Source: an uncultured Gammaproteobacteria bacterium (GTDB lineage Bacteria; Pseudomonadota; Gammaproteobacteria; Nitrosococcales; Methylophagaceae). From it: 64,000 bases of DNA. The stretch covers positions 1 through 64,000 of the forward strand of contig CAJQLA010000008.1 of assembly GCA_905479075.1 (NCBI GenBank), written 5' to 3'. The translations under genes were made by a program, and so were the position numbers. The notes beneath the pieces were generated by a model. It saw only the letters and a list, made by a program, of their open reading frames with translations, was not told where the DNA came from and ran no database searches. How positions within the stretch are numbered: the stretch's first letter is position 1; each line of letters begins with the position of its first letter. Shown here piece by piece: positions 1-25,014 of the stretch.

Positions 1-325
1 CGAATAATGTACCCATTTCAATAGGTGCACCTGTTGTGTATTGGAATACACGCCATGCTAAAGCAACTTGCAATAATGCAAATACTGGCAACATGACATA
101 CATCACTGTGTTTTGCAGTGTTGGCATACCATAGGTATCACCATTTTCGTCAAAACCAGGACCTGGTGGATGCAACGGCATTGTTACTGTATCTAAAATG
201 ATACCAACAGCGAATAATGCAACACCAACCCAAACGAACATACCACCCATTATGACACTAAGCAGCGTAACCAATATCAAAATTGGCGCCATCCAGTATC
301 TAATGTTAATTAGTAGTTTTTTCAT
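1..325 (-). CDS. AlkB-like integral membrane di-iron hydroxylase, N-terminal part (cut by window edge)
   Basis: The first 108 residues of a membrane protein run off the left edge of the window. The translation starts MKKLLINIRYWMAPI and aligns along its length with the N-terminus of the complete AlkB-like protein at 20534-21706: both have LLIN/LIIN-x-RY, a paired hydrophobic segment, DENG, then P-V-F-A/V-L-L-Q and AWRV/VWRV. The ATG (323-325) is preceded by a strong TAGGGGGTG ribosome binding site at 335-343. The histidine motifs lie beyond the edge, so activity cannot be judged. It is the second copy of this family in 24 kb. It is transcribed away from the VWA/AAA+ pair, with a 359-bp shared upstream region. 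Confidence 0.85.
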   Translation of the reverse strand, partial: MKKLLINIRYWMAPILILVTLLSVIMGGMFVWVGVALFAVGIILDTVTMPLHPPGPGFDENGDTYGMPTLQNTVMYVMLPVFALLQVALAWRVFQYTTGAPIEMGTLF

Positions 326-684
326 GATAAAAAACACCCCCTATTTTTTACAATTATAATTATAATTTTATTAAACCAAAGCGTAACAAAATCTTTTTGC
401 ACGCCCTGTTAGCCGAAAATTTTCGAACTAGGAAGTCACTTTATGTGATCAGCAAGTCGATTGCAAATACGTATAAATCCCTAGCTTGGATAATAGTCTG
501 GCCAAGTTAAGCCTTTATTATCCTTGTTTCTAGCTTAAGCCAAATATCGTCAGAATACTCTTTTGAATTGGGCTTAGACCTATAGAATCTCCCTATTTGT
601 ACTTAAGTACAAGTACGTATAACTACTAAACGTCGATCCCTCTATCCTGTACTCCACAAATAATTTTATTCTATAGAGTAGGAT
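326..684. other. Intergenic region between divergent AlkB-like and VWA genes
   Basis: This 359-bp non-coding stretch must hold the promoters of both divergent genes. It contains a perfect 16-bp palindrome (597-612) and an 8-bp inverted repeat, GGATAATA at 488-495 against TATTATCC at 516-523. It also has an ATACGTAT box at 467-474. I see no convincing sigma-70 hexamer pair and no small ORF with a good ribosome binding site. Confidence 0.6.
597..612. promoter_or_regulatory. Perfect 16-bp palindrome, candidate operator
   Basis: TTGTACTTAAGTACAA reads identically on both strands. It lies about 75 bp before the VWA start codon and 270 bp before the divergent AlkB-like start. The position and perfect dyad symmetry suit a dimeric regulator site. 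No regulator is assigned. Confidence 0.45.
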
Positions 685-2775
685 ATGGGTTTTTTTTCAA
701 ACTGGAAAAAAAGGTTTCACCAATCACAACAATCTGCCCTGCAACGCCAATCTCGTGAGGGTGGTTCATTAGAATCCAGGCAATCTGGTTCTACTGGCGG
801 GATGAGTACGAACGAATTGTTGATACGTCTACAGCTGATTGTAGGACAAAACAGCAAGCTACCTCTAATGGAGTATTCAACAAAGATTGCAGCTCTCAGT
901 CACCCATTACAGTTAATTATTTTTTCTGAACTGGATGAGTTAATAGATTTATCCTATGAACATGCCTGTGACTTTTTAGCTGTTTCAGCTTCGGTATTGG
1001 CTGAAATGGAACAAGACCAATATCAAAGATGGTTGTCAGATGTAAAACTATTATTAGCTAAAGGTGAGGACGAAAGAGCGAAAGAACGGATCGCGAATTT
1101 CGTTTTATATACTCAAGATGCCGATGCTAATGTGGTGAAGTTGAGTGACATTACATACACCTTAGAGAAATTGGTATATAGCCTATACAATCAAGAACTG
1201 CCTATTTTTGCATCCGATGACAGTAATTCAATCACAACGTTTACTAATGGTTGTGAGCTGTTTTTACCTGAAAGTATTTCTTACTTTGATGACCACGATG
1301 ATAATTATCGTTTATATAAGGCATTAACTTTTCACCTTCTAGGCCAGCTAACATGTAGTAGTTGGCAAAGCTTAGATACCTTAAAACAGGGCATCGAAAA
1401 ATATGGTGATGAATACCTATCTGTTTTTGCTAAGGTCGAGAGTTTAAGAATAAATTGTCAAATCAAATCTGAATTTCCTGGAATCTGGCGTGATATTGAA
1501 CTGCTACATACTAAAGAAGATATTAAATATCCCTATGACTTGTTTGATGGAAAAGAGAATCTTTCAGTTGATGATACCTTAGCGCTTGTTGGCTCGCTTA
1601 TTGGTACGGATTACCAATTACCTGAACTTGTCTATCAATCTGGTTTTATCCCAAGTCTGATGGGAGAAATTAGAGAAAGCCAGAAGATACAGAGGTCGCC
1701 ATTAATTTTGAATCCTACCCAGGATGTTGATGATTCATTGTTGGATACGACAGGTGATCCAGAAACAGCAGATCGTGGCTACTTAAGGCCTGTTGCCGAT
1801 AGTTCTACTGAACATATTTTGAGTAATTCTCAGCCAGGTCTTTGGCAAGATTCAGCCCCTAATGGTGAAAGTATCAATGAACATACTACAAAGCATCATG
1901 AAAAAGGTATCTATTATTATAAGGAGTGGGATACCTCACTAAAAAAATACCGCAAAGATTGGTGCAGGGTAAAAGAAATAGTTGAAGATATCTCATCTGA
2001 TGATATAGAAATAGAAAACCTAGAAGCGCTTAAACATGCTGAACAACGCATACGCAAAACGTTTGATTTATTGATTAATGATCAGAAGTTTATCCGTAAC
2101 CAAAGTGATGGTGATGAAATAGATATCGATGCCTGGGTGTCAGCGCGTTCTAATAAAAATAAACATGCCGATGATTTCCAGAATGTATATATAAGGAATA
2201 ACACCAGTACTCGAGATGTTGCCATTATGTTCGCAGTTGATATGAGTGGGTCAACCCATGGCTGGAAAAACACGATGATCAAACAATCTACTTGGCTATT
2301 ATGTAAGACCTTAGCGCGTTTAGGGGATCAATATGCCGTTTATGGTTTTTCTGGATCCGGACGAAGCAGTTGTCATATCTATCCAGTTAAAAGCTTCGCT
2401 GAAAGTTACGATAAATCAGTTAAAGCCCGTATCTTTTCTATGAAGCCACATCAATACACACGTATGGGTGTGGCGATTAGGCATTTAAGTATGGTGCTGG
2501 GGAAAGCCACTGCAAAAACACGGATCTTATTTGTCTTAACGGATGGTAGGCCCGATGATATTGACAGCTATCGCGGACAATATGGCATTGATGACACTCG
2601 TTTGGCATTGAATGAAGCCAAAGCTTTGTCTCTTAAGCCTTTTGTCCTGACCTTTGATAAAGAGGGCATGGATTATTTACCGTATATGTTAGGCTCAAGC
2701 CATTATCAACTCATTACTGATATTTCACACTTACCTATACAGATTTCTACTATTTATAAACAATTGACGACTTAA
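685..2775 (+). CDS. VWA-domain protein, NorD/CbbO type
   Basis: A 696-aa protein with a C-terminal von Willebrand factor A domain. The MIDAS motif DMSGS begins at residue 519, and the domain ends with a TDGRPDD loop. The long N-terminal half is helical with no signal peptide, and the middle is acidic and variable. NorD and CbbO work with a MoxR-type AAA+ ATPase (NorQ or CbbQ) to remodel or load metal into a client enzyme: nitric oxide reductase for NorQD, Rubisco for CbbQO. The AAA+ partner follows 3 bp after the stop, so the two are one operon. No norB/norC or cbbL/cbbS is present. The nearest metalloenzyme gene is the divergent AlkB-like hydroxylase, which makes it a possible client (inference). 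Confidence 0.85.
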   Translation: MGFFSNWKKRFHQSQQSALQRQSREGGSLESRQSGSTGGMSTNELLIRLQLIVGQNSKLPLMEYSTKIAALSHPLQLIIFSELDELIDLSYEHACDFLAVSASVLAEMEQDQYQRWLSDVKLLLAKGEDERAKERIANFVLYTQDADANVVKLSDITYTLEKLVYSLYNQELPIFASDDSNSITTFTNGCELFLPESISYFDDHDDNYRLYKALTFHLLGQLTCSSWQSLDTLKQGIEKYGDEYLSVFAKVESLRINCQIKSEFPGIWRDIELLHTKEDIKYPYDLFDGKENLSVDDTLALVGSLIGTDYQLPELVYQSGFIPSLMGEIRESQKIQRSPLILNPTQDVDDSLLDTTGDPETADRGYLRPVADSSTEHILSNSQPGLWQDSAPNGESINEHTTKHHEKGIYYYKEWDTSLKKYRKDWCRVKEIVEDISSDDIEIENLEALKHAEQRIRKTFDLLINDQKFIRNQSDGDEIDIDAWVSARSNKNKHADDFQNVYIRNNTSTRDVAIMFAVDMSGSTHGWKNTMIKQSTWLLCKTLARLGDQYAVYGFSGSGRSSCHIYPVKSFAESYDKSVKARIFSMKPHQYTRMGVAIRHLSMVLGKATAKTRILFVLTDGRPDDIDSYRGQYGIDDTRLALNEAKALSLKPFVLTFDKEGMDYLPYMLGSSHYQLITDISHLPIQISTIYKQLTT

Positions 2776-2778
2776 AAT

Positions 2779-3594
2779 ATGACTTCAGAAAATATCATCG
2801 AAAACTCTCAGTACTATATTAAGGATGAACCTTATTACTTACCAACGGCGAATGAGGTTGATATCTTCAATACAGCCCTAGCTGAAAATATACCCGTGCT
2901 GCTAAAAGGCCCTACTGGTTGTGGTAAGACACGATTTATGGAATATATGAGTTGGTATAATAAGCGGCCTTTGATCACAGTGGCTTGTCATGATGATTTA
3001 ACGACGGCGGACTTAGTCGGACGTTATTTAATTCAAAATGACTCAACAGTTTGGCAGGACGGCCCTTTAACCACGGCTGTTAGAAACGGTTGCATTTGTT
3101 ATCTTGATGAGATTGTTGAAGCACGAAAAGATACCACGGTAGTGATCCATCCGCTTTGTGATGATAGGCGAATGTTGCCGTTAGAGAAATTAGGCCAGTT
3201 ATTACAAGCACCACCCGAGTTTTGTTTAACGATGTCTTATAACCCCGGCTACCAAAGTGCAGTTAAAGATCTCAAACCAAGCACCAGACAAAGGTTTATT
3301 TCAATCGACTTTAGTTATCCAAACGAAGATCTTGAAGCACAAATTGTTCATAATGAAGCGGGCTTAGAATTTCCAACTTGTGAACATCTTGTTAAGCTCG
3401 CCTCTATGACAAGAAACCTTGTAGGTAATGGCTTAGAAGAAGGAGCAAGTACTCGCTTACTTGTCCATACAGCCAAGTTGATCAAGCGTGGGTTTGAACC
3501 AAAAATGGCATGTCGTTGTGCGATTGCTGATGTGTTAACCGATGATCCAGAAACTGTAAATTTGCTTCACGAAATGATCGAAACATTATTTTAG
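2779..3594 (+). CDS. MoxR-family AAA+ ATPase, NorQ/CbbQ type
   Basis: A 271-aa ATPase with Walker A GPTGCGKT at residues 44-51, Walker B CYLDE near residue 108, and the C-terminal extension typical of the CbbQ/NirQ/NorQ group. Length matches that family (about 260-275 aa). These proteins form hexameric rings that use ATP, with a VWA adaptor, to activate a metalloenzyme. The start ATG lies 3 bp after the VWA stop. The gene is convergent with the response regulator gene, with only 6 bp between the stops. Family assignment is firm; the client enzyme is unknown. Confidence 0.9.
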   Translation: MTSENIIENSQYYIKDEPYYLPTANEVDIFNTALAENIPVLLKGPTGCGKTRFMEYMSWYNKRPLITVACHDDLTTADLVGRYLIQNDSTVWQDGPLTTAVRNGCICYLDEIVEARKDTTVVIHPLCDDRRMLPLEKLGQLLQAPPEFCLTMSYNPGYQSAVKDLKPSTRQRFISIDFSYPNEDLEAQIVHNEAGLEFPTCEHLVKLASMTRNLVGNGLEEGASTRLLVHTAKLIKRGFEPKMACRCAIADVLTDDPETVNLLHEMIETLF

Positions 3595-3600
3595 GAAGGA

Positions 3601-4215
3601 TTACAGTTTTATGTTCTCATAATCGGCTGCGATAGCGATTTTGAGAACATCAGATAGTGATTTTGCTTCCAGTTTATCCATAACATGAACCCGGTGAAGC
3701 TCCACTGTTCTGATGCTGATGCCCATATTATAGGCAATTTGCTTATTGCGTAGTCCTTCTACTAAGCCCTGTAATACTTCGCATTCTCTAGGGGTCAATT
3801 TGGCCATGATTTCTTTAGCACGGGAGGTATAAACGTCTAGTTGGCGTTGGTTTTTTTGCTCTTGTAAACATATTTTAATGCGTTCGATCAGTTGCGTTGA
3901 CTCGAAAGGCTTTTCAAAAAAGTCGCTGGCCCCGAGTTTAATTGCTTCAACTGCAGTTGTAACGTCGCCATGGCCTGTAATGCAAATAATAGGGCAGCTT
4001 ATAGCGCGACGGTTGAGCTCTTCTATAACGTCAAGGCCTGACATGCCTGGCATCCAGAGGTCAAGAATAATAAGACCTTCTGGTAAGTCATCTATGGCTT
4101 TTAGGAAGTCTGTTGGGTTGGAGAATTGCTCAGTATTAAAGTCTTCCGATTTTAATAACATGGACAGTGAGTCTCTTACTGCTTCTTCATCGTCGACTAT
4201 ATAGACATTATCCAT
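3601..4215 (-). CDS. FixJ-type response regulator (REC + LuxR HTH)
   Basis: A 204-aa two-domain regulator. The receiver domain has the acidic pair VDDEE near the N-terminus, phospho-acceptor Asp52 in LDLWMPGMSG, and the conserved Lys in EKPF. The C-terminal LuxR/GerE HTH contains LTPRECEVLQGL and the IRTVELHR recognition region. FixJ, StyR and TodT regulators share this layout. It follows its cognate kinase by 8 bp, so phosphotransfer from the 4224-6161 product is expected. The target is not shown. The shared elements upstream of the AlkB-like and GST operons are candidate sites (inference). Confidence 0.93.
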   Translation of the reverse strand: MDNVYIVDDEEAVRDSLSMLLKSEDFNTEQFSNPTDFLKAIDDLPEGLIILDLWMPGMSGLDVIEELNRRAISCPIICITGHGDVTTAVEAIKLGASDFFEKPFESTQLIERIKICLQEQKNQRQLDVYTSRAKEIMAKLTPRECEVLQGLVEGLRNKQIAYNMGISIRTVELHRVHVMDKLEAKSLSDVLKIAIAADYENIKL

Positions 4216-4223
4216 TCTTAAAC

Positions 4224-6161
4224 CTAATCGTTGCTAATTCCAGGAAGAGTAAACTTAAATGTAGTGCCATTTCCGTCATTGGAGTGGACTTGCAATTCAC
4301 CACCGTGTGAATCGATTATAGAGCGAATAATCGCTAGTCCCATGCCCATGCCTTCAGGTTTAGTTGTATAGAAAGGTTCAAATATTTTCTCGATTTCATA
4401 TTCTTGTAATCCAGGCCCTGTATCGCAGACTAAGACCTCAACGCCTGAATCGTGACATAGTTTCGTCTGTAGAGTCAAATGGCGCTTTGATTTATCCGTT
4501 TCCTGCATCGCTTCGAGGGCATTTTTGATCAAGTTGATAATGACTTGTTCTATGAGAATTCTATCTGCTCTTACTTGTGGCAGTGATTCGGCTAAGTCTA
4601 ATTCGATATTTAACTCGTAGTCACGTAGCTCAATTTGTAAGAACTTCAATGTGGACTGGATTAGTGTGTTGATTTCTAGTTTTTTGCGAGAAGTATCTTT
4701 TTTTACAAAATTTCTCAGTTCATGCATGATTTCTTGGGCACGAATTGCTTGATTGGAAATGTTTTCAAAAGCCGAATGTAATTCAGAAATATTGGTACGT
4801 TCTTTTTCGATCAGACGAATGCAGGCACTGCTGTATGCTTCAATGGAGGCCAAAGGCTGTGAAATTTCGTGGGCAAGCTGCGTACTCATTTCACCAATTG
4901 TAATAATACGTGAAGCATGGGCTGCTTCTAACATGTGTTTTAGTTTGCTTTCTTCCTCACTTTTTGATTGTGTAATATCCGTTGTTAATAGGAAAAAGCC
5001 AGTGACAGCCCCGTCTTCTGAGAAGTTAGGAATGTAAGAGCTTCGGATATAGACATCGCCACGATAAGGATACGATAGTATCTCTTCGAAAGTAATATTT
5101 TGTCCTGACATAACCTGTCTGACATAGGGCTTGATGACAGAGTAGGGTTTTTCACCAATCACTTGCCACATTTTTTTACCCTTTATGTCGTTGCGTGAAA
5201 AACCAAACCATTTCTCGAAAGCCTTATTATTAAATTGGTAGGCTAAGTTAGCATCGACATAAGCGATGAGTTCTGGAATAGCATCAATAACGAGCCTTAA
5301 CTGCTGTTCACTTGCCTGTAGGGCTTTTTCAGCTGATTTACGTTTTTCTTCTTCGAGAACTCTATCGGTCACTTCCTGCAATATTGTCGTTAAAACTGGC
5401 TCAGAGGTGCTAAAAGTGAGTAATGACACGCTAATTTCTAGGTATGATTTTACTTCTAGAGAATGTAGGCAGACCACGATGGATTTATTTTTTTCTTCAC
5501 CCGATAAAGCCGTCTTTGTTAAAGCTTGTATTTCTTTTGAGTCTGCTTTACCCGAAAACAAACTGTGAAGTTCTGCATTCACTAGATCTCGTTCGCTTAG
5601 GCCTAGTAAATCTTGAGCGCTACGGTTCAAATTAAGAATGCGGCCATGTGAATCAAGGTTAAGTATGCCTATTGGAATGAGATCAAGTAAGTTGTCTAGA
5701 TAGTTGGCAACAAGCGGGCGCGTTGGCTCAATAGACGTTCTTTCTTTCTCAACAACGGCGATAGCACTTTTATAAGAACGTTGTTTTTCAGCAGTATCTG
5801 CAAGCTCTTGTAGTTTTGTTTTAAATAGGGCGTTACTGGTGAATTCAAATGAAATGACATCGGAGTTTAGGAAGGGCGAAAATTGTACCGCTTTTTGTAA
5901 TGTGTTTTGTTGATTATCCTTGCACAGGATGATGATTTTGATATCACGTTTGAGGACCAGAATATGTTCAGCAGTTCGAATGGGATCCTGAACATTCAAG
6001 CCTAGAACGACAATATCTGGTGTACCGAAATCTTCTTCTAAATGGCAATATAAATTTTCGGGTTGTTCATTGTGTTCGAGAAAAACACCTGCACTGAGGT
6101 TGGAGTTGAGATATTTGAGAAGGACTTCGCCGGTGGCTAATAATGATATTCTGCTACTCAT
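4224..6161 (-). CDS. PAS-domain sensor histidine kinase, FixL/StyS-like
   Basis: A 645-aa kinase without clear membrane segments. Residues 1-115 resemble a receiver fold without a convincing phospho-site. PAS domains follow at about 155-265 and 285-395, with a short coiled coil between them. The HisKA domain carries the phospho-acceptor His431 in AHEISQPLAS. The HATPase domain (about 520-640) has an N-box NLIKNALEAM and a DTGPGL G1 box. This soluble multi-PAS layout fits cytoplasmic sensing of a small molecule or redox state, as in the toluene/styrene sensor group. Its ATG overlaps the stop of the upstream acyl-CoA-dehydrogenase-like gene in an ATGA, so the three genes form one operon. The ligand cannot be read from sequence. 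Confidence 0.92.
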   Translation of the reverse strand: MSSRISLLATGEVLLKYLNSNLSAGVFLEHNEQPENLYCHLEEDFGTPDIVVLGLNVQDPIRTAEHILVLKRDIKIIILCKDNQQNTLQKAVQFSPFLNSDVISFEFTSNALFKTKLQELADTAEKQRSYKSAIAVVEKERTSIEPTRPLVANYLDNLLDLIPIGILNLDSHGRILNLNRSAQDLLGLSERDLVNAELHSLFSGKADSKEIQALTKTALSGEEKNKSIVVCLHSLEVKSYLEISVSLLTFSTSEPVLTTILQEVTDRVLEEEKRKSAEKALQASEQQLRLVIDAIPELIAYVDANLAYQFNNKAFEKWFGFSRNDIKGKKMWQVIGEKPYSVIKPYVRQVMSGQNITFEEILSYPYRGDVYIRSSYIPNFSEDGAVTGFFLLTTDITQSKSEEESKLKHMLEAAHASRIITIGEMSTQLAHEISQPLASIEAYSSACIRLIEKERTNISELHSAFENISNQAIRAQEIMHELRNFVKKDTSRKKLEINTLIQSTLKFLQIELRDYELNIELDLAESLPQVRADRILIEQVIINLIKNALEAMQETDKSKRHLTLQTKLCHDSGVEVLVCDTGPGLQEYEIEKIFEPFYTTKPEGMGMGLAIIRSIIDSHGGELQVHSNDGNGTTFKFTLPGISND

Positions 6162-7407: not shown

Positions 7408-7596
7408 TGATAGGGTCAGGAAGGAAAATTGTTATTTGTAGACTCTCCCTTTTATATGTCAATACAGACAATAAGCGTAAATAGTTAGATTGCTAAGTCG
7501 TAATTTTACGTATGAACTTTCTAGACTATTTTACGGACGACCTATTGTGGAGATAGCCAAAGACGATGATAATAGTGACAGGGTAGGAATGCTTTT

Positions 7597-13124: not shown

Positions 13125-15554
<2,430 letters not shown>

Positions 15555-20252: not shown

Positions 20253-20276
20253 ATAATAACCAAGCGGAATAGTCGA
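20253..20276 (+). promoter_or_regulatory. Upstream shared element, copy 1
   Basis: A 24-bp sequence with core AACCAAGCGGAATAGTCGA, identical at all 24 positions to 22212-22235 before the GST operon. It lies 281 bp upstream of the AlkB-like start codon. It is probably an activator site. Confidence 0.75.
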
Positions 20277-20421
20277 CTTTAAAATTGGAAAATTTAAATA
20301 TTTTCTCAAAAATTTTTATTTAATTTCACATAAACACACATTTTTTGTAATGTTAAAATCACATGTAAATCATATGGTTAAATACACTTACTGTTGGTAA
20401 TGTTAAATAAACCTACCTTTC

Positions 20422-20441
20422 GTAGTGATAATACGTATAGG
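20422..20441 (+). promoter_or_regulatory. Downstream shared element, copy 1
   Basis: GTAGTG, four variable bases, then TACGTATAGG. The same 16 fixed bases with the same spacing occur at 22382-22401. TATAGG could be a -10 hexamer of an activator-dependent promoter. It lies 145 bp after the upstream element. Confidence 0.65.
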
Positions 20442-20533
20442 CGTTAAAAAAATGCAGTTGTAAGTTTAGCGGCGTCTACAGAGGTATACAGATATTGAAG
20501 TAGTCTTTTTCACAACTTGAGGAGGTAGGTATA

Positions 20534-21706
20534 GTGAATAAATTAATTATTAATTTAAGATATTTTTTGACCCCAATACTGATTGTAGTAGCAATGTTGG
20601 GTATTGTTTATGGTGGTATTTTCACATGGCTAGGTGTCGCTATGTTCTTTCTTGCGATCGTTCTTGATTGGATCACAAGTTTATTGCCAGTGAAACTAGA
20701 AGCAGCTGGTGTTGATGAAAACGGTGAGCTAAATGGTATTCCGTGGTTACTCAATACAATGATGTATCTACAGTATCCAGTATTTGTTTTATTACAATTA
20801 TCATTAGTATGGCGTGTTTCTGAATATGCTGCTGGTGTGCCTTTAGGTACAACAGAGATCTTAGGCGTAACTGTAAACCAAGGTATTACAGGCGTTAACT
20901 TGATTGGTGCTGCTATTTCTAATGGTATGTTCATGGGTCTAGGAATCATGTTTGGTCATGAGCTATCACACACAAAAGGTCCTACTTTTGTATTGTCACG
21001 TTGGATGATGGCATTAAGCGGTATCGGCCACTTCTGCTACGCACATGTTTATAACCATCACTTAGAATTGGCTCACGAAGATGATCCTGCAACTTGCCCA
21101 CGTGGACGTAACATCTACAAGCATTTCTTGCTATCACACTTTGGTCAATCTCGTTTCTTATACAAAATGGAACAAGCGCGTTTAGCTCGCTTAAAAGTAC
21201 CTTTCATTTCTATTCAAAACCGTTGGATTCGTGGTTATGCGATGAGCTTACCAACTGTATTTTTGTTCTGGTTCTTCGGAGGCTGGACAGGGCTAGGTAT
21301 CATGGGTATCGCATGGACAATCTCTGCCTTTGAGCTTGAAGTATTAAACTTCTTAGAGCATTACGGTTTAATCCGTGAAAAAGGTCAACCAATCGAATAC
21401 CGTCATTCTTGGGATGTGGGTGAATCTCCATTTACTCAAATTGGCTTTATCGAAATTGGTCGTCAAGGTGATCATCATGACCGTGGTGAAACACACTTCT
21501 GGGAATTAGAAGAAGTAGGTTCTCCAGATACTGGCGTAGGTTACTATGCTATGTTCTCATTATTGTTGATTCCACCTGTATGGGAAGCATTTATCAGACC
21601 TCATTTAGCTAAATGGGATCAAGAAATGGCTTCTGAAGGTGAACGTGTTATTGCAGAGCGCTTGAATAAAAAAGCGGGCTGGAAAAACATGCCATCATTG
21701 ACATAA
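20534..21706 (+). CDS. AlkB-like integral membrane di-iron hydroxylase with variant third histidine motif
   Basis: A 390-aa membrane protein close to AlkB in length (about 400), with hydrophobic segments near residues 12-48, 72-92, 120-140 and 240-265. AlkB-type iron ligands present: HELSH (142-146), HVYNHH (171-176), NFLEHYG with His276, HSWD (291) and DHH (314-315). AlkB has RHSDHH at the last site; here it reads RQGDHH, so Gln311 replaces a His that is an iron ligand in AlkB. The family uses O2 and electrons from rubredoxin or ferredoxin to hydroxylate alkanes or methyl-aromatics; no rubredoxin gene is nearby. The start is GTG with AGGAGG 8 bases upstream. A 67-aa membrane protein follows. 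The substrate is unknown. Confidence 0.9.
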   Translation: MNKLIINLRYFLTPILIVVAMLGIVYGGIFTWLGVAMFFLAIVLDWITSLLPVKLEAAGVDENGELNGIPWLLNTMMYLQYPVFVLLQLSLVWRVSEYAAGVPLGTTEILGVTVNQGITGVNLIGAAISNGMFMGLGIMFGHELSHTKGPTFVLSRWMMALSGIGHFCYAHVYNHHLELAHEDDPATCPRGRNIYKHFLLSHFGQSRFLYKMEQARLARLKVPFISIQNRWIRGYAMSLPTVFLFWFFGGWTGLGIMGIAWTISAFELEVLNFLEHYGLIREKGQPIEYRHSWDVGESPFTQIGFIEIGRQGDHHDRGETHFWELEEVGSPDTGVGYYAMFSLLLIPPVWEAFIRPHLAKWDQEMASEGERVIAERLNKKAGWKNMPSLT

Positions 21707-21802
21707 GCGTTAGCGTATAAAAATTATTTAGAAACAAATGCAGGATGCAGATATGAGCAGGGATTGCTCAAACGCTAAACACGAATTTGGAGGAAAAAAA
21801 TT

Positions 21803-22006
21803 ATGAGTTCATTTAAAGGTTTTCTAGCTATATTGGTTTGGACAGTGATTGTTGCTTTTGGAGCTATCGAGCTCAATATAGGCGCTCATCACAGTGATCC
21901 ACTATGGGCACTAGGAACATCAATAGCGTTTTTGATTTGGCTTGTCTGTTCTGTTGCTATGTTTTTTGGCGTAGCAGGCGACGACCCATTCAAATGGGAA
22001 AAATAA
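21803..22006 (+). CDS. Small two-helix membrane protein in AlkB-like operon
   Basis: 67 aa with two hydrophobic helices (about residues 5-25 and 33-58), a short loop rich in His, and a charged end DDPFKWEK. A good ribosome binding site GGAGG lies 8 bases before the ATG. It is 96 bp after the AlkB-like gene and before the terminator, so it is the second gene of that operon. I do not recognise the family. A small subunit, assembly factor or stabiliser of the hydroxylase is possible by position. Confidence 0.75.
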   Translation: MSSFKGFLAILVWTVIVAFGAIELNIGAHHSDPLWALGTSIAFLIWLVCSVAMFFGVAGDDPFKWEK

Positions 22007-22033
22007 AGAACTAGATTACTAATTCTTTGGAAT

Positions 22034-22065
22034 CAGCCCCAGGTGCATACATTGGCCTGGGGCTG
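22034..22065 (+). terminator. Hairpin terminator after AlkB-like operon
   Basis: CAGCCCCAGG (22034-22043) pairs perfectly with CCTGGGGCTG (22056-22065) around a 12-base loop. Only a short TTTCG follows, so termination may be partial, but the GC-rich stem stands out in this AT-rich DNA. Confidence 0.65.
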
Positions 22066-22211
22066 TTTCGTATATTATGTTTATTAAACGCAGAAAATAT
22101 CCAAAGTAGCGTTATAGGACATTAATTGTTCGTACAGAATTAGTGATTAGATAGATTGATGGAAATTAATATTGAAGGAAATGGATACTTCTAGATTATT
22201 GTTTATAAACA

Positions 22212-22235
22212 ATAATAACCAAGCGGAATAGTCGA
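22212..22235 (+). promoter_or_regulatory. Upstream shared element, copy 2
   Basis: 24 bp identical to 20253-20276, with core AACCAAGCGGAATAGTCGA. It lies 377 bp before the first GST-like start codon. The flanks diverge immediately on both sides. Confidence 0.75.
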
Positions 22236-22381
22236 GATTTTTTTATATTATTGTGTAGGAACTGATTAAAAAATTCAGTTTTTTCTAATATTTTGTGGCG
22301 AAATATATTAATATAAAAAACATATATTTCAATGGGTTATGCTTTGCTAGGTGGTGGCCTGTTCGATAGGTCATAGTATTT

Positions 22382-22401
22382 GTAGTGTTTCTACGTATAG
22401 G
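22382..22401 (+). promoter_or_regulatory. Downstream shared element, copy 2
   Basis: GTAGTG, four variable bases, TACGTATAGG, as at 20422-20441. It lies 146 bp after the upstream element, against 145 bp in the AlkB-like promoter. The near-constant spacing argues for one promoter architecture. Confidence 0.65.
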
Positions 22402-22588
22402 ATAACTATGCACCGAGACCTAACGTGTAGCTCATCTGATAACATGTACAGATTATCGAGTGAGCATGAGCAGTTAACAAGCCAGCTTATGAACCCGAGA
22501 AGAGGGGAAACAGCTAAGGTGTGATAGAGGATAACACTTTGGTATGTATATTTTTAGTTAAATAATTAATAAAAAAAGGGGTTAACGA

Positions 22589-23266
22589 ATGCCATTTTTT
22601 AGAAAGAAAAAGAAAGAGGCAGTACGCATGAAAATGCGTGGCTTTCCAGGAGATGTTAATACAGCAAAATGTCTTCTGATGGCTGCAGAAAAGAAAGTCC
22701 AGCTTGATGTGGAAGTGCTAGATGTTAAAACGGGAGCGAGTGATTCAGATGAGTATCGTGCGCTTTCTTCTTTTGGTAAGTACCCATACCTAGAGGAAGG
22801 TGACTTCGCAACAAACAGCGTAAACGCGGTACTTTCATTCTTGGATGTGCGAGGAGAAGGCAATAGCTTGTTGAACCCAAAAAAAGCACAATTCTTTGGT
22901 CACCAAAATTACTGGAGCCAAGTAGCAAGAACATTATGTGAGCCTGCATTAATGACGTTAATTGATGCCAACGTTTACGGTGAAGCAGGTGGTGACACTG
23001 ATGCGGCCTGTAAGCAAATTGACACAGTATTAGATGAACTAAATAGCTTTGTTGATAACAAAGAATATATTGTCGGCGACTATTCATTTGCTGATGTTCA
23101 CTGGACTGCTGTGGCACATATGCTGACACTTGTCGGCGCTGAAGATGCAATTACTTCACGTAGTAATTTAAATGCATGGTTCGGTAGAGTGAAAGCGCGT
23201 CCTAGCTATGCTGGATTGCCATCACTTGATGATGTTAAAAACAAACAGCTCAGATCAGTAGCCTGA
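22589..23266 (+). CDS. Glutathione S-transferase-like protein 1
   Basis: 225 aa with a GST layout. The thioredoxin-like N-domain starts at MRGFPGDVNTAKCLLMAA and has the cis-Pro position in FGKYPYL, followed by a TNSVNAVLSFLD helix where GSTs bind the gamma-glutamyl group. The helical C-domain contains the N-capping signature YSFADVHWTAVAH. A basic N-terminal stretch (FRKKKKEAVRMK) is unusual. It is a paralogue of the next gene, sharing the FPGDV, DSD-D/E-Y/FRA and YSFAD-HWT segments. A catalytic Tyr, Ser or Cys cannot be fixed by eye. By its shared promoter it is likely co-induced with the AlkB-like operon. Confidence 0.82.
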   Translation: MPFFRKKKKEAVRMKMRGFPGDVNTAKCLLMAAEKKVQLDVEVLDVKTGASDSDEYRALSSFGKYPYLEEGDFATNSVNAVLSFLDVRGEGNSLLNPKKAQFFGHQNYWSQVARTLCEPALMTLIDANVYGEAGGDTDAACKQIDTVLDELNSFVDNKEYIVGDYSFADVHWTAVAHMLTLVGAEDAITSRSNLNAWFGRVKARPSYAGLPSLDDVKNKQLRSVA

Positions 23267-23290: not shown

Positions 23291-24082
23291 ATGGCTGATT
23301 TATTTCATTACGGATCTGCGGCTAAAGCATTAGATGCAGATGATCGTTACGGTAGTGACGGTGATATGAAGAAAACCCAATATGTCATGCAATTGCTTGG
23401 CTTCCCGGGTGATGTTGACACACTTAAATGTCTTTTGACTGCTGCTGAAAAAGGTATCGAAGTCGAAAGTGGCGTTTTAGATATGACAAAAGGTGAGCAA
23501 GATAGTGATGATTTTCGTGCTATTTCACCATTTGGCATTACACCAGCGCTAAAAGAAGCACAATATGTTGTTGTTGGCGAACCAGGTTGCGCAGTCTTTA
23601 TTGAAGGCCGTGGTCTTGGTAATCGTTTGGCTCCACGTAATGCTGCAGTTTTAGCGACGGAAATGGAGTGGATGGAAGTAGGTAAAACAGAGGTTCAACC
23701 TCATGTTGAAGCTCTTATGATGCAAAAAGTTTGTGGCAAAATGGCAGATCCATCATTCGCTACAGATGATGCTGCAGTTCAAGCTGCACGTGCAGCATTA
23801 GCCGATCCATTAGATGCATTTGATGATCAATTACAGTCGAATGAATTCGTTGTAGGTCAGTATTCATTTGCTGATATCCATTGGACTATCTATATTCACT
23901 TATTGACTGTTATGGGTGAAGGCGCACTTTACGCGAAGCATAATAATATTAAAGCTTGGTTCGAACGTGTTAAAGCACATAAGAGCTTCTCAGGCCAAGA
24001 TATTATTAGTTATGACTTCTTACCAACACTTGAAGAAATCCAAGCGAAAGTAATGAAAGATGTAGAGTGTGGTGAGTTCTAA
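23291..24082 (+). CDS. Glutathione S-transferase-like protein 2
   Basis: 263 aa, paralogous to the gene 24 bp upstream but with a 30-residue N-terminal extension and a longer C-terminal end. The N-domain has LLGFPGDVDTLKCLLTAAEKG, cis-Pro in FGITPAL and a GEPGCAVFIE helix. The C-domain has YSFADIHWTIYIH. The ribosome binding site AGAGGAG precedes the ATG. Two different paralogues side by side could form a heterodimer. A role in conjugating a reactive oxidation product such as an epoxide or aldehyde is inference from the neighbours. Confidence 0.82.
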   Translation: MADLFHYGSAAKALDADDRYGSDGDMKKTQYVMQLLGFPGDVDTLKCLLTAAEKGIEVESGVLDMTKGEQDSDDFRAISPFGITPALKEAQYVVVGEPGCAVFIEGRGLGNRLAPRNAAVLATEMEWMEVGKTEVQPHVEALMMQKVCGKMADPSFATDDAAVQAARAALADPLDAFDDQLQSNEFVVGQYSFADIHWTIYIHLLTVMGEGALYAKHNNIKAWFERVKAHKSFSGQDIISYDFLPTLEEIQAKVMKDVECGEF

Positions 24083-24107
24083 ATAGAGCTACTGCAAAAA
24101 AGAGTTA

Positions 24108-24320
24108 ATGAGTACAACTAATTCACAAGCGATGGAAATAGTGGCTGATCTTGGGTTAAGCCATGAAGAAGTAGCACAATACCTAAATGTTACTAATGAT
24201 GTAGTGGAAAAATGGTTTGGATTAGATGGCAGTAACGAACAGGTAGAAATGCCTGATTCAGAACTCAATTTTTTAAAATATTGCTTAATGACGGATAATA
24301 AACGTTCGCATTTATTTTAG
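24108..24320 (+). CDS. Small HTH-like protein at end of GST operon
   Basis: 70 aa. Residues of about 15-38 read LGLSHEEVAQYLNVTNDVVE, the spacing of an XRE-type helix-turn-helix (Q-Y-L-N-V as helix 2, V-V-E-K-W-F as helix 3). A conserved C-terminal tail is not recognised. It begins 25 bp after the second GST-like gene and ends before a strong terminator, so it belongs to the operon. It could be a small regulator or an adaptor. Confidence 0.65.
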   Translation: MSTTNSQAMEIVADLGLSHEEVAQYLNVTNDVVEKWFGLDGSNEQVEMPDSELNFLKYCLMTDNKRSHLF

Positions 24321-24347
24321 AAAAAATACTGGTTTACTCTAGAAATT

Positions 24348-24380
24348 AAATAGGCCGCTTTCTTAGCGGCCTATTTTTTT
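24348..24380 (+). terminator. Strong rho-independent terminator after GST operon
   Basis: AAATAGGCCGCT (24348-24359), loop TTCTT, perfect complement AGCGGCCTATTT and more T. The stem is 12 bp without mismatch. Confidence 0.92.
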
Positions 24381-24459
24381 GTTTGAAACAGATAGATGAA
24401 CAATATATAGCTGTAACCTATGATGGTGGTCATTGACTAGGACTACACCTGAGCCGTAT

Positions 24460-25014
24460 CTAGCCTCTAACTAAACCCTTTTCAACATCGCTTCGCGTCT
24501 TGGCATCAGTAAGATACTCAATGATGGCCAGAGCAAAATCCATGGCTGTACCAGGACCCCTAGAGGTTAAGACCCTATCATCAACCACAACGGCGTCACC
24601 GCTAAATAGGGTGTTCGGCCAATCATCTATGTTTAAAGCGCCGGGATAGAAGGTGGCAGTTTTACCATCAAGAAGTCCTGCATTTGCAAGGACTAAAGGC
24701 GCAGCACAGATTGCAGCGAGGGCTTTACCATTCTGATAGAGCCGTTTGAGAATGGCATGAATACGAGGGTCTGAATTTAAATTAGTGGCGCCAGGTAATC
24801 CCCCGGGTAGTATGACCATGTCAAAATCATTGTAGATAACTTCATCAAGCTCAGTGTCTGCAACTAGATGTACACCACGGCTAGCAGTCACAGCGACCGG
24901 GCCTAGGCTTGCTGTAACAACATTAATTTTAGCTCGGCGTAACAAGTCTATTATTGTGACAGCTTCTAATTCTTCGCAGCCTTCGGCTAGGGGCACTAAT
25001 ACAGTCACGGACAT
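24460..25014 (-). CDS. DJ-1/PfpI family protein, YajL-like
   Basis: 184 aa, the length of YajL/DJ-1. The N-terminus VLVPLAEGCEELEAVTIIDLLRRA carries the conserved Glu, and the nucleophile elbow AAICAAPLVLANAGLL carries the active Cys. Members act as oxidation-sensitive chaperones or glyoxalase-like enzymes in the cytoplasm. It is the distal gene of a minus-strand run with ctpA, envC and gpmI, 16 bp after ctpA. Confidence 0.92.
   Translation of the reverse strand: MSVTVLVPLAEGCEELEAVTIIDLLRRAKINVVTASLGPVAVTASRGVHLVADTELDEVIYNDFDMVILPGGLPGATNLNSDPRIHAILKRLYQNGKALAAICAAPLVLANAGLLDGKTATFYPGALNIDDWPNTLFSGDAVVVDDRVLTSRGPGTAMDFALAIIEYLTDAKTRSDVEKGLVRG

Follow-up and report, generated by a model that had tools for sequence, protein, structure and literature searches.

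The 64,000-nucleotide stretch of DNA analysed here (the window) carries a gene for a membrane di-iron oxygenase of the AlkB/XylM type, which is followed on the same strand by a gene for a 67-aa small protein (sORF) and by two genes for GST-like proteins, GST1 and GST2 (Table 1). This four-gene unit is kept in several genomes of the source genus (AlkB 86–90%) and also in Ca. Thiodiazotropha and the clam-symbiont genomes resembling it (AlkB 76–77%); the name Ca. Thiodiazotropha is used here for three clam-symbiont genomes, and is carried by one record only (L071). The Thiohalocapsa AlkB stands at 74%, its contig stopping within the AlkB gene. For Methylophaga or Thiodiazotropha, literature searches on this oxygenase combined with GST returned nothing. 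The layout of the unit varies among genomes: in G016, G002 and Thiodiazotropha, the sORF and GST1 are 75–120 bp apart under a single promoter, the source genome, G003 and G010 have an additional full promoter ahead of GST1, and in G011 both AlkB and the sORF are gone, one promoter being left beside the upstream LysE gene. Recombination between promoter copies would explain both the single- and two-promoter layouts and the state of G011.

Table 1. Features of the oxygenase/GST region and of the linked regulatory genes, with positions in the window
Feature	Positions	Strand	Basis or remark
TACGTAT of partial AlkB paralog (fragment 20–325, −)	467–473	−	−10 TAAAGT at 438–443
TACGTAT of VWA/CbbQ operon (685–3594)	614–620	+	−10 TATCCT at 643–648
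FixJ-type response regulator, candidate regulator	3601–4215	−	PDB 5xso 3e-44; linkage to AlkB genes
PAS-domain histidine kinase (FixL-like)	4224–6161	−	domain matches
TACGTATGAA between FixLJ/acyl-CoA dehydrogenase operon and metallo-beta-lactamase-fold (MBL) gene	7507–7513	+	conserved in five genomes; no −10 at 22/23 bp
E1 before alkB-like operon, putative upstream activating/regulatory element	20253–20276	+	about −215 from predicted start; exact 24-bp repeat
Array, four direct repeats, 25-bp period (rTGGTTAAAt)	20343–20442	+	autocorrelation peak at 25 bp
Proposed FixJ-type site GTG-N4-TACGTAT, alkB-like promoter	20425–20438	+	within second element 20422–20441
Predicted −10 TAAGTT, alkB-like operon	20461–20466	+	predicted start near 20473
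AlkB/XylM-type membrane di-iron oxygenase gene	20534–21706	+	Pfam FA_desaturase 1e-24; PDB alkane 1-monooxygenase 3e-24; XylM ~30%
67-aa small protein gene (sORF)	21803–22006	+	orthologs adjoin AlkB in relatives and distant genomes
E1 copy before GST operon	22212–22235	+	exact 24-bp repeat
Degenerate array counterpart, GST promoter	22303–22402	+	recognisable: GGGTTAT unit and GTAGTG unit only
Proposed FixJ-type site, GST promoter	22385–22398	+	within second element 22382–22401
Predicted −10 TAACGT, GST operon	22421–22426	+	predicted start near 22433
GST-like gene 1 (GST1)	22589–23266	+	Pfam GST_N
GST-like gene 2 (GST2)	23291–24082	+	Pfam GST_C, GST_N; PDB phi-class GSTs

Several peculiarities of the gene neighbourhood were observed alongside. 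A second GST pair, present after GST2 in G003, G010, G011, G012 and G016, is missing from the source genome (window 24082–24460). AlkB-like paralogs lie at many contig ends, including window positions 1–325, which suggests near-identical copies breaking assemblies. Near the end of G002 contig 25 (L099, near 14780–14874), the alkB upstream region holds AGATGTGTATAAGAGACAG, which we take to be the Nextera mosaic-end adapter, this contig end appearing to be assembly contamination.

Ahead of both operons stands a 24-bp element (element 1, E1), whose two copies (ATAATAACCAAGCGGAATAGTCGA) are the same at 24/24 bp within differing flanks; no other direct repeat in the 64-kb window reaches 18 bp. The preliminary description had reported this identity together with a second element following at 145 and 146 bp, and both observations hold: the second element, GTAGTG-N4-TACGTATAGG, recurs with 0 mismatches at the two sites, separated from E1 by 145 bp on the alkB-like side and by 146 bp on the GST side. 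By querying the 19-bp core of E1 with at most 3 mismatches, 2 matches were obtained in the window versus 0.02 expected, and the whole genome of 1.92 Mb yielded just these two; the second element with 0 mismatches likewise has no further copy in the whole genome, so neither exact element is scattered beyond the two promoters. The exact form GTAGTG-N1..4-TACGTATAGG gave 0 matches in the other 368 gammaproteobacterial genomes searched, and a literature search with the bare element sequence found no relevant paper. Across 6 genomes, 9 promoters conform to the E1 consensus AATAACCnAGCGGAAyAGTCGA, and the distance from E1 to the TACGTAT of the second element is kept at 174–176 bp in all nine copies. 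E1 is missing from distant promoters and from paralog promoters having TACGTAT, and was not found in G018, G022 and G015 of the same genus, though FixLJ is present there. On the genomes compared, E1 is confined to the genus of the source genome, and it is probably bound by a second factor distinct from the FixJ-type regulator. In G012 (L095, 7694–8206), AlkB residues 1–94 run directly into GST1 residues 149–225 through a deletion or an assembly join, and the second element of the same unit is decayed (TACATATATG).

The second element is tied to a predicted −10 box at a nearly invariant distance. In a set of 25 promoters, which were picked for preceding AlkB-like/GST genes and having TACGTAT (TACATAT in one) and which share descent, so that 25 is not the count of independent events, TAnnnT begins exactly 22 or 23 bp past TACGTAT in 25/25, 14 promoters having the shorter and 11 the longer spacing, with at most 1 promoter having it at any other offset and shuffles reaching at most 7. 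Both AT-rich and GC-rich genomes contribute to the set, as do several classes of paralogs, and it covers the source genus, Ca. Thiodiazotropha and Thiohalocapsa. Based on this spacing of 22/23 bp, TACGTAT would lie at about −41 to −35 relative to the predicted starts, and GTR-N4-TAC, an imperfect palindrome, would span about −48 to −39. Class-II activators sit at about such positions (~−41), and the features of a class-II activated promoter are found relative to the predicted start, namely a site at ~−40, no −35 box and a sigma-70 type −10 at a fixed distance. Inspection by eye near the second element revealed no sigma-54 −24/−12 GG-N10-GC, the TAnnnT −10 being conserved instead. With the predicted −10 just 22–23 bp beyond TACGTAT in both operons, the predicted starts lie close to the second element, which supports the promoter function proposed earlier for both sites. 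Nearly every AlkB-like paralog examined in the genus also has TACGTAT upstream, there without E1 and array, and the version of it in Ca. Thiodiazotropha and Thiohalocapsa, GTAGTG-N-TACGTAT, yields one match per 4.5–5.2-Mb genome, located at the AlkB start. Of the two parts of the signature, the second element thus tells more. Downstream of the predicted GST start, the predicted leader (22433–22588) can form conserved hairpins with weak covariation (four genomes), and its GGAGGA loop is a possible CsrA-like site.

Between E1 and the −10 box, the alkB-like promoter is organized as a phased array, in which GGTTAAA or GTTA(A/T) units begin at about −122/−121, −97/−96 and −72/−71 relative to the predicted start, and the GTGTTA/GTAGTG part of the second element makes up the last unit at −47. 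Autocorrelation across promoters peaks at 25 and 50 bp. In the alkB promoter of the source genome, none of 200 shuffles attains the 25-bp autocorrelation value at whatever shift; among the relatives, some show a significant signal and others a weak one, and there is none, again by autocorrelation versus shuffles, in the GST promoter copy of the source genome and in G012. E1 is in register with the array, 175 bp corresponding to seven periods, and its AATAACC is inverted with respect to GGTTAAA. A search for GGTTAAA pairs alone stayed at chance (20 forward and 16 reverse versus 18 and 19 in the control), its query having assumed 28 bp and the true period being 25 bp.

The middle DNA of the two promoters cannot be aligned in the source genome (z = 1.2), as stated earlier, but can be in G003 and G010 (z 7–8). 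Since the G003 and G010 promoter pairs still align and that of the source genome does not, the two promoters are, as judged by alignment, an old paralogous duplication, the middle of which has eroded in the source genome with the elements retained. The earlier preference for constraint over a recent duplication is thereby upheld, E1 being 24/24 identical and the spacing kept around a diverged middle. The duplicated promoters thus make a natural series, in which the parts of a composite promoter decayed separately. A bolder proposal, which we regard as conceivable though doubtful, is that the 25-bp GGTTAAA array with E1 about seven periods upstream would be a rigidly phased bacterial enhancer of a new kind, where FixJ itself or a regulator not yet described may assemble cooperatively, controlling the oxygenase and GST operons together.

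Querying the source genome with TACGTAT-N22/23-TAnnnT retrieved 9 matches, 5 upstream of cluster genes (two AlkB paralogs, VWA/CbbQ, alkB and GST1), 1 upstream of fae and 3 within genes. The match number itself is not enriched, reversed-pattern controls giving 7 and 9 matches; the informative part is the placement, with five of the six upstream matches at cluster genes, and the pattern recurs at the same cluster genes in four sister genomes. Likewise, all five intergenic TACGTA in the window fall in cluster upstream regions (5/5), the other 9 lying within genes. The −10 at 22/23 bp is absent in half of the VWA promoters and at all MBL sites, and one AlkB paralog of the source genome (contig 8, 187980–189125) has no TACGTAT. 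This shared core appears to expose a previously unmapped regulon and is probably the landing site of the nearby two-component regulator.

Further sites and genes were noted around these promoters. On contig 6 of the source genome (L142, 211869–211903), TACGTAT-N22-TAATTT lies 73 bp before fae, which encodes the formaldehyde-activating enzyme, and this promoter-like site was not seen in the four relatives searched. Throughout the genus, the VWA-domain and CbbQ/MoxR-type ATPase genes (window 685–3594) are oriented divergently to AlkB paralogs, and perhaps specify an oxygenase activase. On contig 21 of the source genome (L084, 411–2972), an AlkB paralog lies beside MerR (MlrA/CarH-like) and photolyase-like genes, pointing to a possible light-linked oxygenase control; in its promoter, TTATACAA-N10-TTGTATAA abuts TACGTAT.

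Within the genus, 8 genomes have orthologs of the FixJ-type regulator (63–87%), and each of them has TACGTAT cluster promoters. Counted by promoter, orthologs occur in 8/10 genomes with TACGTAT promoters versus 0/19 without, the two exceptions being G002 (86% complete) and G010 (81% complete), in which the promoters are present and the FixJ ortholog was not found. As the regulator tracks TACGTAT promoters (8 genomes with, 0/19 without), it is, by this distribution, not a housekeeping one. The FixJ gene is 3.3–3.5 kb from an AlkB paralog, beside VWA/CbbQ, in five genus genomes including the source, and ~11 kb from one in G015. Among four distant genomes, three have the best FixJ homolog (46–51%) on the AlkB-promoter contig, 7–35 kb off, and the fourth has it on a different contig of a fragmented assembly; on the three contigs, the homolog occurs together with FixL, an acyl-CoA dehydrogenase-like gene, GST and a 2Fe-2S/FAD reductase. 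In two Cycloclasticus-like genomes (a guessed affiliation), AlkB homologs are present, but neither a TACGTAT promoter nor FixLJ turned up in the 15–18-kb stretches examined. The recognition-helix segment reads RTVELHR in all the linked FixJ proteins, and has another sequence in StyR, in FixJ and in second FixJ paralogs.

Published FixJ-family consensus motifs vary and disagree with one another; SELEX gave the FixJ consensus GTAMGTAG, and FixJ footprints lie at −57/−31 of fixK (PMC4999443). The R. palustris FixJ binds a fixK promoter holding GTACGTAG (PMC13327599), and StyR has an essential site at ~−40 and activates from there (PMC2442086). The core TACGTA is common to GTAMGTAG and the second element, but the flanking bases differ, being mostly A before and T after here. 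Based on the linkage and co-occurrence, the helix segment, the published FixJ sites and the StyR position at ~−40, binding of FixJ to the second element would be the best reading. The involvement of a FixJ-type system, suggested in the preliminary description, thus gains support from the AlkB linkage in the genus and in 3/4 distant genomes and from the TACGTA core match, and so does the suggestion of one FixJ-type regulator for both operons, which would act via the second element and not via the AACC half of E1.

The same data could be read with a regulator other than FixJ on TACGTAT, FixLJ merely riding the same catabolic island and sensing something else: no FixJ ortholog was detected in G002 and G010 although both have the promoters, some AlkB paralogs with TTATACAA-N10-TTGTATAA beside the TACGTAT of their promoters are neighbours of a MerR (MlrA/CarH-like) gene, and the FixLJ–AlkB linkage could reflect common ancestry of the island instead of direct regulation. 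However, MerR-type boxes are missing from the operon promoters and from Thiodiazotropha, within the genus FixJ goes with the TACGTAT promoters, distant genomes have it in the vicinity of theirs, and published FixJ boxes have the TACGTA core (PMC4999443, PMC13327599). We regard another regulator as unlikely. Improbable, too, is that the GGTTAAA/AATAACC repeats and E1 would be the FixJ (StyR/TodT-like) sites, leaving TACGTAT as a core-promoter element for RNA polymerase or some other factor. The repeats are multi-copy, as at known catabolic promoters, and we assume a loose resemblance of AATAACC/GGTTAAA to StyR/TodT half-sites; compared by eye with the palindromic StyR/TodT box ATAAAC-N4-GTTTAT, E1 holds only AATAACC. 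But the array is degenerate in the GST promoter of the source genome, and the paralog and distant promoters have neither array nor E1, although the FixJ-type protein is conserved there, recognition helix included. With E1 absent from those TACGTAT promoters and not found in G018, G022 and G015, the earlier idea that its AACC half is a FixJ half-site is not supported.

Two further explanations were weighed. Recent duplication of a promoter segment, free of regulatory constraint, would accord with the homology of the two promoters in G003 and G010 (z 7–8) and with the single promoter copy of some relatives, but is very improbable given an unalignable middle in the source genome (z = 1.2) beside a 24/24 identical E1 and a spacing kept in all genomes; the 9-promoter alignment already contradicts it. 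We give hardly any credence to the view that the conserved downstream leader is a structured, riboswitch-like RNA and the elements incidental, since E1 and the second element lie upstream of the predicted start, the alkB leader is just ~61 nt and an Rfam search produced no family above the cut-off, only a sub-threshold match, against a foldable GST leader with GGAGGA in a hairpin loop and six pairs changed on both sides in four sequences.

From the elements, their spacing, distribution and gene linkage, as observed, we infer binding, phosphorylation, activation, start sites and a role of the array and E1, and consider it likely that both sites are promoters of one FixLJ regulon, activated at TACGTAT with second-factor control through E1 and the array. 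The FixL-like sensor kinase would phosphorylate the FixJ-type regulator, which would then bind GTR-N4-TACGTAT. This site extends over about −48 to −35, a stretch without a visible −35 box, and from it the regulator would, as a class-II activator, recruit RNA polymerase to the TAnnnT −10. Its targets would be the alkB-like/sORF operon, the GST1-GST2 operon, AlkB paralogs and the VWA/CbbQ operon. The GGTTAAA array with its 25-bp spacing, capped by E1, may add genus-specific control via a second factor, which probably acts cooperatively or by looping, and the old duplication would have supplied the GST genes with their own promoter copy. Such a regulon would tie a marine AlkB/XylM-like oxygenase clade, together with the GST proteins that go with it, to one particular two-component system, and offers TACGTAT-N22/23-TAnnnT as a predictive signature for finding further members in relatives and clam symbionts.

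The proposed system resembles the FixLJ/fixK promoters of rhizobia and Rhodopseudomonas in its REC-LuxR regulator (PDB 5xso, 3e-44), in the TACGTA core of GTAMGTAG and in a site near −57/−31, but its targets are a membrane oxygenase/GST cluster rather than fixK, and its promoters additionally have an array with a 25-bp period and, farther upstream, a 24-bp element. With StyS/StyR at PstyA of styrene catabolism, it shares a REC-LuxR regulator (PDB 1yio, 2e-38), the control of oxygenase genes, and an essential site near −40 combined with an upstream regulatory element (PMC2442086); the recognition helix is VTVKVHR in StyR versus RTVELHR here, and the upstream element lies at −110/−75 at PstyA versus a rigidly spaced ~−215 here. 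TodS/TodT at PtodX of toluene catabolism likewise exerts two-component control of hydrocarbon oxygenase genes, TodS having two kinase modules and the FixL-like kinase one. The XylMA/AlkB hydroxylase systems have in common the membrane di-iron oxygenase and, in the clusters of relatives, the 2Fe-2S/FAD reductase, whereas the identity is only ~30% and the oxygenase here comes with a 67-aa protein and two GST-like proteins.
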